Positions 39,454 to 64,000 of a stretch of 64,000 nucleotides of DNA are shown here, piece by piece. Made by a program: the position numbers and the translations under genes. A model generated the notes under the pieces. That model saw only the letters and a program-made list of their open reading frames with translations. It searched no databases and was not told the origin of the DNA. Where the stretch lies: NCBI GenBank assembly GCA_017629215.1, contig JAGBXP010000036.1:1-64000 (forward strand). The letters are read 5' to 3'. Numbering within the stretch: position 1 is the first letter of the stretch; each line of letters opens with the position of its first letter. This stretch comes from a bacterium. GTDB taxonomy: Bacteria; Cyanobacteriota; Vampirovibrionia; Gastranaerophilales; Gastranaerophilaceae.

Positions 39454-40344
39454 ATGGCACTTACAATTAACACAAACATTTCATCTTTGGTAGCACAAAG
39501 AAACTTAGCTAATGCGACAAGTTCGTTAAACACAGCTATTGAAAGAATGACAACTGGTTACAAGATTAACCATGCAAGCGACAACGCTGCAGGTTATTCA
39601 ATCGCACGTAACTGGGAAACACAATTAGGCTCATTAGACGTTGCTGCTGACAACGCTGCGACAGGGGCTGACATGTTAACAACATTAGAAGACACTTATA
39701 CTTTGTTAACTGATCACTGTCAACGTGTTAGAGACTTAACAGAACAAGCTGCAAACGGTACTTATGGTACACAATCATTAAGAGCTATTGAATCAGAAAT
39801 TACAGCAAGACTTGAAGAAATTAACCGTATTGCTGCAAACTGCGAATTTAATGGTCTTAAAATGATGTCTGGTACTATGAGTGATATAAGCATACAAGTA
39901 GGCTTGTATGGTGATGAATACAGCAGAATTGAACTTAAAAATGAATTATTTGATGAAGCAAGTGTTGAAGAATTATTTGATACTTATGGTGGTATGACTG
40001 GTGCTGACGTTGAAAGCGTTGCTCAAAAATGTGCAGGCTTCAATGATGATGGTACTATCAGTAGTGATAATGCAACAGGAATGCTTACTGTAATTGATAA
40101 AGTAATCAATCAAATTTCAGAACGTGTAACAACATTAGGTGCTGCTCAAAACAGAATTGACTCTGCTATTGAATCAATTGCTGTACAATCTGAAAATATC
40201 ACATCATCTTTATCAACATTAAGAGATGCAGATATTGCAGAAGAATCTTCAAATTACATTCAATCACAAATTCTACAACAAGCTGCTGCTACATTGTTAG
40301 CAACTGCAAACCAAACTCCAAGTATTGCATTAAACCTTCTATAA
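39454..40344 (+). CDS. Flagellin
   Basis: This 296-aa protein polymerises into the flagellar filament. The N-terminal D0/D1 region is classic: MALTINTNISSLVAQRNLAN, ERMTTGYKINHASDNAAGYSIA. The C-terminal D1/D0 is also classic: LRDADIAEESSNYIQSQILQQ, ATANQTPSIALNLL. The central variable domain is short (residues about 140-210), giving a compact filament. It has higher coding bias (strong SD, fewer rare codons) than neighbours, as for a highly expressed gene. No export or chaperone gene is adjacent. A glycan cassette that could modify it begins at 59847. Confidence 0.95.
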   Translation: MALTINTNISSLVAQRNLANATSSLNTAIERMTTGYKINHASDNAAGYSIARNWETQLGSLDVAADNAATGADMLTTLEDTYTLLTDHCQRVRDLTEQAANGTYGTQSLRAIESEITARLEEINRIAANCEFNGLKMMSGTMSDISIQVGLYGDEYSRIELKNELFDEASVEELFDTYGGMTGADVESVAQKCAGFNDDGTISSDNATGMLTVIDKVINQISERVTTLGAAQNRIDSAIESIAVQSENITSSLSTLRDADIAEESSNYIQSQILQQAAATLLATANQTPSIALNLL

Positions 40345-57510: not shown

Positions 57511-58062
57511 TTATTTTTCACTATCTAAATATCTATAATCTAGCAAACTCGAGTCGCTAATATCCTCAACGTCATAAAACATTGACATGTTTGAAACAAT
57601 GCGATTTCTATCTGCTAATTTTTGTTTTTCTAAATCAGATTCAACGCCAAACGCTTGAATTTCTTGATTAGTAACTTTGCCGTCTTTGTTTTTATCTATT
57701 TCATTGAAATGATTAAGTACAGTCTCTTGTAATGAAGAACTGAAACCAGAAGCACCTGCTAATGAAATAATTTGTTCTCTTGTAAGCCCTTGAGTAGCCA
57801 TTTGAGACATTAAATTTTGAATTTCATTAGGCGAAATTTTCCCATCTTTATCAGAATCTATGGTACTAAAATTATTAGTAATATATGAAGCAAAAGTTCC
57901 ATTAATATTTGAATTTGTTAAATAATTAGAATTTGTTAAAGCTTTATTCAAATTCTCTAAAGTTACACCATCACTATATTGTCCATTAAGCTGAGCAAAA
58001 GCATTTGTTAGCCCTGCATTTATTCCTGAAAACATTGAAGTTCCATCTAATCGTTTGCTCAT
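57511..58062 (-). CDS. EF-hand calcium-binding protein
   Basis: This 183-aa protein has two EF-hand loops: DSDKDGKISPNE (residues about 69-80) and DKNKDGKVTNQE (about 122-133), each with the Asp/Asn, Gly and terminal Glu needed to bind Ca2+. The N-terminal 60 residues are Asn- and Ser-rich with no signal peptide. The ATG at 58062 follows GAGGAG by 7 nt; an upstream ATG at 58077 overlaps that site and is not used. Calmodulin-like proteins of this kind are unusual in most bacteria. The role is unknown, possibly surface or signalling. Confidence 0.85.
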   Translation of the reverse strand: MSKRLDGTSMFSGINAGLTNAFAQLNGQYSDGVTLENLNKALTNSNYLTNSNINGTFASYITNNFSTIDSDKDGKISPNEIQNLMSQMATQGLTREQIISLAGASGFSSSLQETVLNHFNEIDKNKDGKVTNQEIQAFGVESDLEKQKLADRNRIVSNMSMFYDVEDISDSSLLDYRYLDSEK

Positions 58063-58192
58063 GTTAAATCTCCTCATGATTGATTATATATACCTATTAT
58101 TAGTTTAATAGTTTTGTCTAAAAAGTCAAATAATCAATTGAATAATTTAAGGACTAGAAAGAGCTAAAACATGTGTTATAATTATATATAAG

Positions 58193-59696: not shown

Positions 59697-59726
59697 TGTA
59701 TTATTAATTATATTTATGCTAAAATT
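59697..59726 (+). promoter_or_regulatory. Promoter of the second glycan operon
   Basis: TTGTAT (59697-59702), an 18-nt spacer and TAAAAT (59721-59726) with TG one base upstream (extended -10). The leader is about 114 nt and contains the small hairpin CTTG-TATT-CAAG and a spare AAGGAG near 59765 that leads only to a stop. Confidence 0.6.
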
Positions 59727-59846
59727 GAATAAAAAATGCTTGTATTCAAGTTTTTATAAAGAGTAAGGAGTATTGTAAACTGAGAGTGAAAAAGCAATAA
59801 TTGTAACTTATAGTTAATTATTAGTAGAGCAAGGAGCTTGGTTTAG

Positions 59847-60974
59847 GTGAGTTTAAGCAATAAAAATAAAAAAATTTATATTACGCAACCTTTATTACCT
59901 TCAATAACATCATTAAATTCTCATTTTGATGACATTTGGACTTCTAAAATAGTTACAAATATGGGAAAAAAACATAATGAACTCGAAAGCAAATTAAAAA
60001 ATGTTTTAAAAGTTCAAAATGTATCATTATTTAATAATGGTACAATTGCGTTATTAGTTGCTATAAAAGCTCTTGATTTACCAGTTGGCAGCGAAATTAT
60101 AACTACTCCTTTTACATTTGCAGCTACTCCTCATTGTATTTCTTGGAATGGTTTAAAACCTGTATTTTGTGATATTGAACCAAATACAATGACGATTGAC
60201 GCTGACAAAATTGAAAAATTAATAACTCCAAATACATCAGCAATATTAGGTGTTCATGTTTACGGCTTTCCATGTGATGTAGAGAAGATTGATAAAATTG
60301 CTAAAAAGTATAACTTAAAAGTTATTTATGACGCAGCGCACGCTTTTTCAGCTGAAATTAACAATAATGGCATAGGAAATTATGGTGATATAACAATGTT
60401 TTCCTTCCATGCAACAAAATTGTTTAATACTATTGAGGGAGGTTGTTTAACTTATAACGATGAGCGTTTGATTAGAAAGATTTATGATTTAAGAAATTTT
60501 GGCATACAGTCAGAAGAACTTGTAGAAGATATTGGCATTAATGGAAAGTTAAATGAAATTCAAGCAGCTATTGGACTGGAGAATTTAAAGTTATATAAAG
60601 CCGAACAAGAAAAAAGAGCCAAGATTAAAGCTTTTTATGATGAAAAACTATCTTCCATTAAAAGTATAACAATACCTAAAATGCCAGAAAACACAACAAA
60701 TTCTTATCAATATTATCCAATCATAATAGAAGATGATTATCCTTTAACTAGAAATGAATTGTATGAAAAATTCAAAAAAGAAAATATTTATACAAGAAAA
60801 TATTTTTATCCAGTTTGTACCGATTATGAATGTTATAAAAATAATGCTTCTGTAGAAGCTTCAGATTTAAAAGTTGTAAACAACTTGAAACACAAAATTT
60901 TATGCTTACCATATTATGGAGCGTTGACAATTGATGAGCTTAATACTATTTATGAGGTGATAAAAAATGGATAA
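59847..60974 (+). CDS. DegT/DnrJ/EryC1-type sugar aminotransferase
   Basis: This 375-aa PLP enzyme adds an amino group to an NDP-keto-sugar. FNNGTIALLVAIKAL binds cofactor phosphate, VIYDAAHAFSAEINN holds the ring Asp, and SFHATKLFNTIEGGCL contains the Schiff-base Lys; NFGIQSEELVEDIGINGKLNEIQAAIG is the family's C-terminal substrate region. The start is GTG 10 nt after AAGGAG. As first gene of the operon it probably makes the amino sugar that later genes transfer and acylate. It overlaps the next gene by 8 nt. Confidence 0.92.
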   Translation: MSLSNKNKKIYITQPLLPSITSLNSHFDDIWTSKIVTNMGKKHNELESKLKNVLKVQNVSLFNNGTIALLVAIKALDLPVGSEIITTPFTFAATPHCISWNGLKPVFCDIEPNTMTIDADKIEKLITPNTSAILGVHVYGFPCDVEKIDKIAKKYNLKVIYDAAHAFSAEINNNGIGNYGDITMFSFHATKLFNTIEGGCLTYNDERLIRKIYDLRNFGIQSEELVEDIGINGKLNEIQAAIGLENLKLYKAEQEKRAKIKAFYDEKLSSIKSITIPKMPENTTNSYQYYPIIIEDDYPLTRNELYEKFKKENIYTRKYFYPVCTDYECYKNNASVEASDLKVVNNLKHKILCLPYYGALTIDELNTIYEVIKNG

Positions 60975-62157
60975 AAATTTTAAATTATTATCAAAAGAAG
61001 TTACCGAAAAAAATATTACCTATAGTTTTTTGTGGTTTAAATTAGTTTTAAAAAATCCGAATTTTGTTGATGAATTAGAGATTGAAACTAAAAAAGCTAT
61101 TAAAATTCAAAACAGCTATGATTTAAAACCTTTACGTCAAACAAAAAAACTTATATTGTTTTTAACACCAGCCAATATAAAAATTTGTGGTGGGGTTATG
61201 TCAATATATTCACTATGCGAGACCAGTAGAAAAATAAGTTCAAACTCATTATGTATACTCTCAACCTATCCAAACGAAAAATATACATATTCTAGTAATG
61301 AAAAATTCCCAAATAAAGAGTTGATTTATCGTTTTTCTCAAATAGTAAATAATTGCAAAAAACTTGAAGAATTAATTGTACATATTCCAGATTATTATGC
61401 GAAAGATTTTTATAAAAGTCTTACCTCAAGAGATATAAAATTTCTTAAATCTATAAAAAAATTACATTTAAACATAATGAATCAAAATATAGAATTAATG
61501 CCAGAACCAGAAGAATTAAAAGATTTGTATAAACTTACAAATAATATAACTCAAACTGTTGCGCATAATAGATATGCTACTCAAGAGGTTTGTGATAAAT
61601 GGCAAATTCCTACACATTTGTTTTCAGTAAACATTGATTCATCTAAATATAAAAGCTATCCATTTGAAGAAAAAGAAAAAAATATTGTTGTATCACCAGA
61701 CAGACACAAAGATAAAGGCAAAATAATAGGAAAAATGAGAGAAAAATTCCCTGATTTTAATTATATAACAGTGCAAAATATGACATTTCCAGAGTATATG
61801 GATTTAATCGCTCGTTCATATTTTACAGTTTCTTTCGGAGAAGGAATGGACGGATATTTTATTCAGCCCTCAAGTGTTGGGAGTGTTGGCATAACAGTTT
61901 ACAATAATAAATTTTTCCCTGATGCTAGTTGGAAAGATTTATTTAATGTATATGAAAGCTATGAGATGATGGCAGATAAAATATTAAATGACTTAGAAGC
62001 TATGCTTAATGATAAAAAATTGTACGAGCAAACAAGTAATGCAGTAAATATTAAACTATCTCAGGTATATAGTGCAAAATCATATAATAATAATTTGAAA
62101 AGATTTTATGAGAATAAGTATGATTTTTATCCTTTAATAAAAAAAAGAGAAAATTAA
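60967..62157 (+). CDS. GT-B-type glycosyltransferase-like protein
   Basis: This is a 396-aa protein. The first 40 residues (YSFLWFKLVLKN) recall the short modules of the capsule proteins. LILFLTPANIKICGGVMSIY (residues about 58-77) matches the N-terminal nucleotide side of GT4/WsaF-like enzymes, and FTVSFGEGMDGYFIQPSSVG (about 280-299) the donor-binding side, where an E-x7-E would be expected but is changed. It is probably a transferase of the sugar made by the DegT enzyme. Translation is coupled by the 8-nt overlap. Confidence 0.7.
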   Translation: MDKNFKLLSKEVTEKNITYSFLWFKLVLKNPNFVDELEIETKKAIKIQNSYDLKPLRQTKKLILFLTPANIKICGGVMSIYSLCETSRKISSNSLCILSTYPNEKYTYSSNEKFPNKELIYRFSQIVNNCKKLEELIVHIPDYYAKDFYKSLTSRDIKFLKSIKKLHLNIMNQNIELMPEPEELKDLYKLTNNITQTVAHNRYATQEVCDKWQIPTHLFSVNIDSSKYKSYPFEEKEKNIVVSPDRHKDKGKIIGKMREKFPDFNYITVQNMTFPEYMDLIARSYFTVSFGEGMDGYFIQPSSVGSVGITVYNNKFFPDASWKDLFNVYESYEMMADKILNDLEAMLNDKKLYEQTSNAVNIKLSQVYSAKSYNNNLKRFYENKYDFYPLIKKREN

Positions 62158-62183
62158 TTGTTAATTAGATAAGTGAGGTTTTA

Positions 62184-63350
62184 ATGAGTTTAAATAAATT
62201 TAATAAAGTTAAAATTAGTGGAATCTCTGTTGTAGTTCCAGAAAATGAAATAAATATTTACGACGAAGCTGAGTATTATGACAATTCGATAAAAAAAATT
62301 GATAGAATGCGTAAAATGGTTGGTTTTTGGAAACGCAGAGTTGCTAATAAAGAACAAACAGCTTTAGATTTTGCTTATAATGCAGCTATAAATCTTATTG
62401 AAGAAATGAAAATAGATGTAAATACAATTGACGCCTTATTATATGTTGTTCAAAAACCTGATTGGCTTGGACCAGTTAATTCTTATTTTTTACACCACAA
62501 ATTAGGATTATCAAAAGAATGTATTGCAACTGACATTGTGCAAGGTTGTGCTGGCTGGGTATTTGGCTTATATATAGCAAGTCAAATGATAGAATCGGGA
62601 GCCCATAAGAAAATTTTATTATTAAATGGCGATACTCCATCAATTGGTATTGATCCTTCTGATAGAAACCAAGCTCCTATTTTTGGAGATGCTGGTAGTG
62701 CTACGTTATTAGAATATACAGATCAAACACAACCTTCACATTTTAATATTGATACAATTGGAGAAGGATACGATGCAATAATTTCTCCTTTTAGTGCAAA
62801 TCGCTTTGGTTTAAATTTTCTAAAAGATGAAGATTTTGAAAAACTGTCAATTCTAAGAAAAGAAAAAGCAACATTACCAACAGGTAATACACAACCATTA
62901 CTTGGCTCTTATATTGATGGTTTAAAAGTTTTTGATTTTACAATTAAACAAGTGCCTAAAACAATAAAAACACTTTTAGAATATGCTAATACATCTCAAA
63001 GTGATATAAATTTATTAGCATTACATCAAGCTAACAAGCAGATTGTTCAAGGAGTTGGCACAGAGGCAGGATTTGATTTAGCAAAAGTTCCATATGAAGC
63101 GTTTGAAATGTACGGCAATAATACAATGTGCTCGATACCTACTGTATTGTCAATGTTAGATAAAGATATAAAAAAAGAAAATGTATGTTGTTGTGGGTTT
63201 GGTAACGGTTTAATTTCAGCAGCAGCAATTCTAAATTTATCAGACACATATTTGGGTGAAATAAAAACATTTAAAAAACCTGAATATGTTTGGGCTAATA
63301 CAGATGAATACATTGATTATTGGCGTAAAAAAATGCAAGGACAAGTATAG
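62184..63350 (+). CDS. 3-oxoacyl-ACP synthase III-like enzyme (FabH family)
   Basis: This 388-aa thiolase-fold condensing enzyme has the full Cys-His-Asn triad: TDIVQGCAGWVFGLYIAS (Cys near residue 123), LLALHQANKQIVQ (His near 280) and EMYGNNTMCSIPTVLS (Asn near 312). It is longer than housekeeping FabH (about 320), with an extra C-terminal 45 residues rich in aromatic residues. Beside a private acyl carrier protein and a reductase, it probably builds a short acyl chain for sugar modification rather than membrane fatty acids. AAGTGAGG precedes the ATG. Confidence 0.92.
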   Translation: MSLNKFNKVKISGISVVVPENEINIYDEAEYYDNSIKKIDRMRKMVGFWKRRVANKEQTALDFAYNAAINLIEEMKIDVNTIDALLYVVQKPDWLGPVNSYFLHHKLGLSKECIATDIVQGCAGWVFGLYIASQMIESGAHKKILLLNGDTPSIGIDPSDRNQAPIFGDAGSATLLEYTDQTQPSHFNIDTIGEGYDAIISPFSANRFGLNFLKDEDFEKLSILRKEKATLPTGNTQPLLGSYIDGLKVFDFTIKQVPKTIKTLLEYANTSQSDINLLALHQANKQIVQGVGTEAGFDLAKVPYEAFEMYGNNTMCSIPTVLSMLDKDIKKENVCCCGFGNGLISAAAILNLSDTYLGEIKTFKKPEYVWANTDEYIDYWRKKMQGQV

Positions 63351-63379
63351 TATTTATAAATAAGATAAGGAGAATAAAA

Positions 63380-63610
63380 ATGAAAAAAGAAGAATTTTTA
63401 GTTGAATTAGAAGATGTATTACAAAGAGAAGAACCTTGTAATGAAACAGATATTTTAGAAGAATATGACGAGTGGGATTCTTTATCTAAAATGGCTATAA
63501 TGGCTTTTTACAGTAAAAACTTTGGAATTAATGTAACTTTAAATGATCTTAAAGAATTAAAAACCGTAGAAGATTTAATCAAACTTGCAGGAGATAAAAT
63601 TGATGCCTAG
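63380..63610 (+). CDS. Acyl carrier protein-like
   Basis: This 76-aa four-helix protein has the phosphopantetheine Ser in EYDEWDSLSKMAIMAFYSKN, where DSLS takes the place of the usual DSL of AcpP. It is acidic, as usual. It lies 29 nt after the ketoacyl synthase and overlaps the SDR start by 8 nt, so it is a pathway-dedicated ACP. AAGGAG precedes the ATG. Confidence 0.9.
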   Translation: MKKEEFLVELEDVLQREEPCNETDILEEYDEWDSLSKMAIMAFYSKNFGINVTLNDLKELKTVEDLIKLAGDKIDA

Positions 63611-64000
63611 TTTCAGCAGAGAACAAGTTTATATTGTTACAGGAGCTTCATCTGGCTTAGGTGAAGCTACAGCATTAATGTTAAATGAGAGAGGTGCAAC
63701 AGTAATTGCAATAGCAAGAAACGAAAAACGTCTTTTAGATGTAAAATCTAAATGTAAAAATCCAGAAAATATGCATATTGAAATCAAAGATTTAGTAGAA
63801 GATATTGAAGGATTACCACAATATGTTAAAGAGTTAAAAGAAAAATATGGCAAATTTTCTGGTATGGCTTATTGTGCTGGAATAAGCAATATTATACCTT
63901 TGCGAGCACTTGATTTTGCACAACTTGAAAATACACATAAAATTAATTTCTATGCTCCAATTATGTTAACAAAAGGTATCGTAGATAAAAGAAACAACAT
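63603..64000 (+). CDS. Short-chain dehydrogenase/reductase, truncated by window end
   Basis: The first 132 residues of a FabG-like NAD(P)H reductase. The start is MPSFSREQVYIVTGASSGLG with the TGxxxGxG cofactor loop; AYCAGISNIIP takes the place of the NNAG motif; the Ser-Tyr-Lys catalytic region lies beyond the window. The ATG at 63603 overlaps the ACP stop. It probably reduces the 3-oxoacyl-ACP made by the upstream synthase, giving a 3-hydroxyacyl group, or reduces the sugar itself. Confidence 0.88.
   Translation, partial: MPSFSREQVYIVTGASSGLGEATALMLNERGATVIAIARNEKRLLDVKSKCKNPENMHIEIKDLVEDIEGLPQYVKELKEKYGKFSGMAYCAGISNIIPLRALDFAQLENTHKINFYAPIMLTKGIVDKRNN

Follow-up and report, generated by a model that had tools for sequence, protein, structure and literature searches.

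Several described bacterial systems attach unusual acyl groups to surface sugars or use related acyl chemistry. In Pseudomonas syringae pv. tabaci 6605, the viosamine island (vioA, vioT, vioS, acp, vioR, vioB) yields Qui4N(3-hydroxybutyryl)2Me as the terminal sugar of the flagellin glycan, and deletion of vioR, vioA, vioB or vioT abolishes this sugar (PMC3927599). FkbH enzymes take a glyceryl unit from 1,3-bisphosphoglycerate and attach it to an acyl carrier protein (ACP); in tetronate biosynthesis it is used by a FabH-like β-ketoacyl-ACP synthase III (KAS III) (PMC7489565). The Campylobacter jejuni flagellin locus (cj1295–cj1302 region) contains cj1302, which has an FkbH domain, and cj1301, annotated as an epimerase (PMC7099621). 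Here we describe an operon of eleven genes in a Gastranaerophilales genome (1.8 Mb, 97.6% complete), which begins in a window comprising bases 1–64000 of the 103,034-bp contig C32; positions beyond 64000 follow the contig numbering. This operon probably makes and transfers an N-acylated amino sugar, the acyl group of which is built on private carriers, perhaps with the participation of a C3 unit relayed by FkbH. The core belongs to a known kind of cassette; its extension by FkbH, a VOC protein and a second KAS III looks new.

An operon with a viosamine-type head

All eleven genes lie on the + strand in one tight operon from 59847 to 68629, 3' of which is a convergent histidine kinase gene. The original prediction had recognised five of them, for a DegT aminotransferase, a glycosyltransferase-like protein, a KAS III, an ACP and a short-chain dehydrogenase/reductase (SDR), as a packed operon, and all five were found, with -10 to +30 bases between neighbours. 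The start given for this operon, 59697, is intergenic, and the first gene starts with GTG at 59847. That gene (59847–60974, +) encodes a VioA/DesI-like member of the DegT/DnrJ/EryC1/StrS family (PF01041, 328 bits) with the pyridoxal phosphate lysine motif FSFHATKLFNTIEGG and DesI (2po3, E 1.7e-55) as its top PDB match. Like VioA it belongs to the DegT family, and proteins 71–73% identical occupy the same position in loci L064 and L087. The next gene (60967–62157, +) encodes 396 residues that matched no Pfam family. Its AlphaFold2 model (mean pLDDT 87, pTM 0.83) has a GT-B fold and resembles the glucosyltransferase 8xsh/8xsg (Foldseek 1.4e-8; best VIA Z 20.1, with 8xsg), and orthologues of 38–54% identity stand directly 5' of KAS III in several loci. 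It is probably the transferase of the acylated sugar.

The acyl-chain genes follow. The VioS-like KAS III no. 1 (KAS1; 62184–63350, +; PF08545/PF08541, 68 and 51 bits) retains an intact Cys122-His281-Asn312 triad. ACP1 (63380–63610, +) scores 20.0 bits for PF00550, just short of the 20.8 cut-off, but keeps the serine of its DSL motif, and its orthologues, mostly 53–78% identical, hold the same position in KAS1-type loci. The VioR/FabG-like SDR ketoreductase (63603–64343, +, starting at TTG 63600 or ATG 63603; PF13561, 140 bits) has the TGASSG and YxxxK motifs. The operon had been expected to run off the end of the window with an acyltransferase perhaps just outside, and the contig indeed continues it to 68629, the very next gene (64344–64985, +) being that of a NeuD/PglD/VioB-family acyltransferase, hereafter NeuD. 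It possesses hexapeptide repeats (PF00132, 42.5 bits against a cut-off of 27), TIGR03570 is its top NCBIfam match, and VioB (7txp), its top PDB match, is the nearest solved relative, so that both the repeats and the closest similarity place it in this family. A KAS III, a stand-alone ACP, a ketoreductase and a hexapeptide acyltransferase in one operon is the arrangement of a viosamine-type locus, and the clustering of these four families with DegT and a glycosyltransferase is shared with the viosamine island and with the P. aeruginosa PAK glycosylation island (PMC3927599). For the head of the operon, no model has better support than the viosamine island. Scans for promoters and terminators gave signals no better than in shuffled sequences.

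Because the gene content is that of the viosamine island, the best reading of the product from these sequences is a 4-amino-6-deoxy sugar that bears, on its amino nitrogen, a 3-hydroxyacyl group built on an ACP. The basic steps can be predicted from the protein families. DegT would transaminate a nucleotide 4-keto-6-deoxyhexose, probably the dTDP-4-keto-6-deoxyglucose of RmlB, to a 4-amino sugar of the Qui4N type; RmlB is encoded in the genome (495 bits, cut-off 365) and likely supplies the precursor. AcpS, encoded by the last gene (68276–68629, +; PF01648, 71 bits), would arm ACP1 and also ACP2, a second carrier described below, a 3-hydroxyacyl chain would be made on ACP1 by KAS III and the SDR, NeuD would move this chain to the sugar amino group, and the GT-B enzyme would place the finished sugar on a surface glycan or glycoprotein.

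Conservation was scanned in 286 genomes of the order and in a collection of named genomes. The order KAS III-ACP-SDR-NeuD was found in at least 28 loci in Gastranaerophilales, Alphaproteobacteria, Helicobacteraceae and Desulfovibrionaceae, a count that reflects constancy of the neighbourhood rather than frequency in nature, since the loci were found through KAS III similarity. Most of the named genomes with a close relative of the cassette are metagenome-assembled ones of Candidatus Gastranaerophilales. DegT together with a glycosyltransferase or another gene often lies 5' of the core (L063, L064, L072, L087, L089, L095, L106 and others), and the whole six-gene head is kept in L064, L087 and L089. 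Gene content and conserved order both agree with the central idea of the original prediction, the making and transfer of an amino sugar whose N-acyl group is built on the ACP and is probably a 3-hydroxyacyl. PglD and PerB, solved relatives of NeuD, are named acetyltransferases, which might point to plain N-acetylation from acetyl-CoA, with the KAS and ACP serving some unrelated role; this is hardly credible, since NeuD directly follows KAS III-ACP-SDR in all these loci and since the reductase VioR is needed for the acylated sugar in P. syringae (PMC3927599). In L075 (2336–3496, genome G155), a stop interrupts KAS1 while ACP-SDR-NeuD is intact, which may reflect decay or loss of the cassette, or else an assembly error.

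The FkbH module and the acyl chain

The operon differs from the viosamine island by the addition of ACP2-FkbH-VOC-KAS2-AcpS. ACP2 (64998–65219, +) matches PF00550 weakly and keeps the serine of its DSM motif; FkbH (65221–66801, +; TIGR01686, 278 bits, curated cut-off 147) has the HAD motif DLDNT; the VOC protein (66786–67202, +; PF13669) is a relative of methylmalonyl-CoA epimerase and glyoxalase; and KAS III no. 2 (KAS2; 67195–68268, +; PF08541/PF08545) keeps the Cys-His-Asn residues as KAS1 does. KAS2 falls in a clade of four (window, G141, G065 and G239; support 100/99 in a maximum-likelihood tree), all members of which share a gene run with ACP2, FkbH and VOC. G141 and G065 each have one additional KAS III, which G239 lacks. 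In these three other Gastranaerophilales genomes ACP2-FkbH-VOC-KAS2 lies in loci L076, L077 and L190, and it leads to genes for an ACP1-like protein, an SDR and, in place of NeuD, a GNAT acyltransferase, with two unrelated genes intervening before ACP, SDR and GNAT in L076. In L190, KAS2 is the sole KAS III, yet both ACPs are present, which fits the idea that one ACP carries the starter and the other the extender. A further genome (L092) has KAS1-ACP1-SDR-NeuD-ACP2-FkbH-VOC at 64–81% identity, up to the contig end at VOC.

A smaller cassette, FdtA-FkbH-ACP followed by a GNAT-VOC fusion, occurs in L033 (9149–12404, G013) and L077 (7686–10865, G065). It likewise ties FkbH, ACP and a VOC domain to a sugar N-acyltransferase, but it lacks KAS III, has GNAT in place of NeuD, and contains the sugar ketoisomerase FdtA, which points to a 3-amino sugar. 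The GNAT half of the fusion matches FdhC, a 3-hydroxybutyryl sugar N-acyltransferase, and the KAS-free cassette probably serves to acylate a 3-amino sugar with a C3 group. Across L076, L077, L190, L092 and the loci of G013 and G065, the acyltransferase and KAS III vary while FkbH-ACP-VOC is constant, and a sugar N-acyltransferase is at hand in every FkbH-ACP-VOC locus compared. The recurrence of the module suggests 1,3-bisphosphoglycerate as the source of a C3 unit that becomes part of the acyl chain.

FkbH would load ACP2 with this C3 unit, the VOC protein would modify or epimerise it there, and KAS2 would join it to a malonyl extender on ACP1, after which the SDR would reduce the product and an acyltransferase that varies between loci, NeuD in this operon and GNAT in others, would pass it to the amino sugar. 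With the C3 unit in the chain, the acyl group would be polyhydroxylated rather than a plain 3-hydroxybutyrate. From the co-occurrence of FkbH, VOC and KAS2, we infer such a two-carrier relay tentatively, at somewhat less than an even chance. Open papers yielded no description of a viosamine-type core together with an FkbH module, and a literature search for FkbH with O-antigen and ACP gave no match.

Some observations weigh against the biosynthesis proposed here. The top NCBIfam model of DegT, DesI, scores 275 against a cut-off of 650 bits, below the equivalog threshold, so that DesI is the best relative and amination at position 4 is presumptive; NeuD scores 99 bits against the 160.8 of TIGR03570; and KAS III and VOC fall below curated NCBIfam cut-offs as well, so that the substrates are family-level guesses. 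Neither the VioM methyltransferase nor a large VioT is encoded among the eleven genes, the VioT of the viosamine island having 1,173 residues whereas the GT-B enzyme is about a third of that size. An ACP-bound starter for KAS2 is presumed only. A CoA ester could act as the acyl donor instead, or the FkbH module could serve another acceptor.

A rival arrangement would be two independent acyl lines, in which the core makes an ordinary 3-hydroxybutyryl sugar just as the viosamine island does and ACP2-FkbH-VOC-KAS2 makes a second group for another position or another sugar. In most loci KAS1-ACP1-SDR-NeuD occurs without FkbH, so the core works alone, and L190, L076 and L077 have the FkbH module but no KAS1. 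The pseudaminic acid of C. jejuni bears di-O-methylglycerate, and the flagellin glycosylation locus there has the fkbH gene cj1302. On the other hand, NeuD is the only acyltransferase gene of the operon, and stand-alone FkbH modules bring their own ACP1-like protein and SDR; the second module of the window has neither, and therefore probably shares ACP1, SDR and NeuD. Two separate lines thus appear unlikely, although they deserve consideration.

The tetronate glycerate-utilisation operon (mad7/mad8/mad16) shares FkbH, a stand-alone ACP and a FabH-like KAS III with the present one (PMC7489565), a trio that forms tetronates, and a Pseudalkalibacillus plasmid carries an FkbH-ACP-KAS III-SDR cluster that includes genes for a β-ketoacyl synthase and a dehydratase and resembles such a pathway. 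A small free metabolite or lipid, like a mini-polyketide or tetronate, with the sugar genes just decorating it, is nonetheless very improbable: an Agg4-like acyltransferase and an Agg5-like dehydratase, as defined for tetronates (PMC7489565), are both missing among the eleven genes, sugar genes stand in place of a polyketide synthase, and the relatives of the cassette lie among genes for glycosyltransferases, polysaccharide pyruvyl transferases, capsule and FdtA.

Other modules are found behind the core. In L067, L074 and L082, KAS1-ACP1-SDR-NeuD is followed by a KAS III and an SDR, two transketolase halves, an ACP and an AMP-ligase, and in L068 by a KAS III, an ACP, a FabA-like dehydratase and a thiamine pyrophosphate (TPP) enzyme; L108 of Helicobacter sp. 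16-1353 has a module similar to that of L068, with NeuB. By this variety, the cassette resembles a socket into which alternative acyl-starter modules fit.

Housekeeping copies and carrier activation

The families of the operon overlap FabH, AcpP and FabG, and the original prediction would fall if these were the only fabH and acpP copies of the genome. This is not the case, because a housekeeping fabH-fabD-fabG cluster, named from sequences and position and including a third KAS III, lies on contig C49 and a canonical acpP adjoins fabF on C43. These second copies rule out an ordinary fatty-acid cluster. In the maximum-likelihood tree, the cassette KAS III proteins form clades apart from housekeeping FabH, and they are missing from nearly all congeners: a KAS1 relative of more than 50% identity was found only in G006 among the congeners sampled, and a close FkbH only in G013 (40%) among 33 congeners searched. 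A housekeeping role has next to no chance of being correct, and by its sequence distribution the cassette is an accessory in the genus. Beside the upstream TonB-like gene, the genes downstream of the operon were found within 1.5 kb in none of 19 congener loci, so that a clean insertion site was not identified. A small protein with EF-hand calcium-binding motifs is encoded nearby (57511–58077).

The operon AcpS is the only match to PF01648 above the cut-off in the genome. A phosphopantetheinyl transferase (PPTase) of this family is found in 113 of the 286 genomes of the order and, host included, in 5 of the 38 of the genus. It is present in 15 of 22 genomes with a cassette KAS as against 98 of 264 others (p 0.006, phylogeny not controlled), and six cassette genomes of genus g36 have no PF01648 match, a mixed picture for AcpS as an enzyme strictly private to the cassette. 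Given the canonical acpP and fab genes of the host genome, a PPTase that is so far unrecognised may be at work in the lineage. In L166 (1480–1851, G009), AcpS directly follows rmlD- and rmlA-like genes, again a sugar-nucleotide context.

The acceptor glycan and surface diversity

The window contains the flagellin gene noted in the original prediction (39454–40344; Flagellin_N and Flagellin_C), 19.5 kb from the operon, and flagellin is a plausible acceptor. A parallel to Campylobacter flagellin-glycosylation loci was drawn at that time; among characterised systems, the Pseudomonas viosamine/flagellin island comes closer, although the C. jejuni flagellin locus also has an fkbH gene. Compared by description, the C. 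jejuni locus resembles the operon in its FkbH gene and in a glycerate-derived acyl on a flagellin sugar, whereas its sugar is pseudaminic or legionaminic acid and the link between FkbH and acyl is itself putative (PMC7099621, PMC3068675). In L033, the FkbH cassette lies near fliF-fliG-fliH, as named by reading open reading frames. FabH- and ACP-like genes are presumably also neighbours in the C. jejuni locus. A role specific to flagellin is unsupported, because besides flagellar surroundings the relatives of the cassette occur in capsule-type (L076), pyruvyl-transferase (L063, L067) and NeuB/nonulosonate (L108) contexts. On plasmid p3 of Azospirillum brasilense Sp7 (L215), pseI, glycosyltransferases, an ACP, a ligase, an SDR and a KAS III run directly into flagellin.

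The N-acyl groups that surface sugars bear are antigenic and exposed to phages and hosts. In Gastranaerophilales, relatives of cyanobacteria that come from gut and rumen and have been little studied, the cassettes amount to a modular toolkit for acylating surface sugars. The recurring ACP2-FkbH-VOC-KAS2 run gives a testable prediction, a glycerate-derived N-acyl amino sugar, and hints at what the VOC proteins adjoining FkbH in sugar loci may do. If the relay is true, FkbH-VOC, the transketolase halves, and the TPP enzyme with FabA would be swappable starter modules, and polyketide-style starter chemistry would diversify the cell-surface sugars of uncultured gut bacteria.

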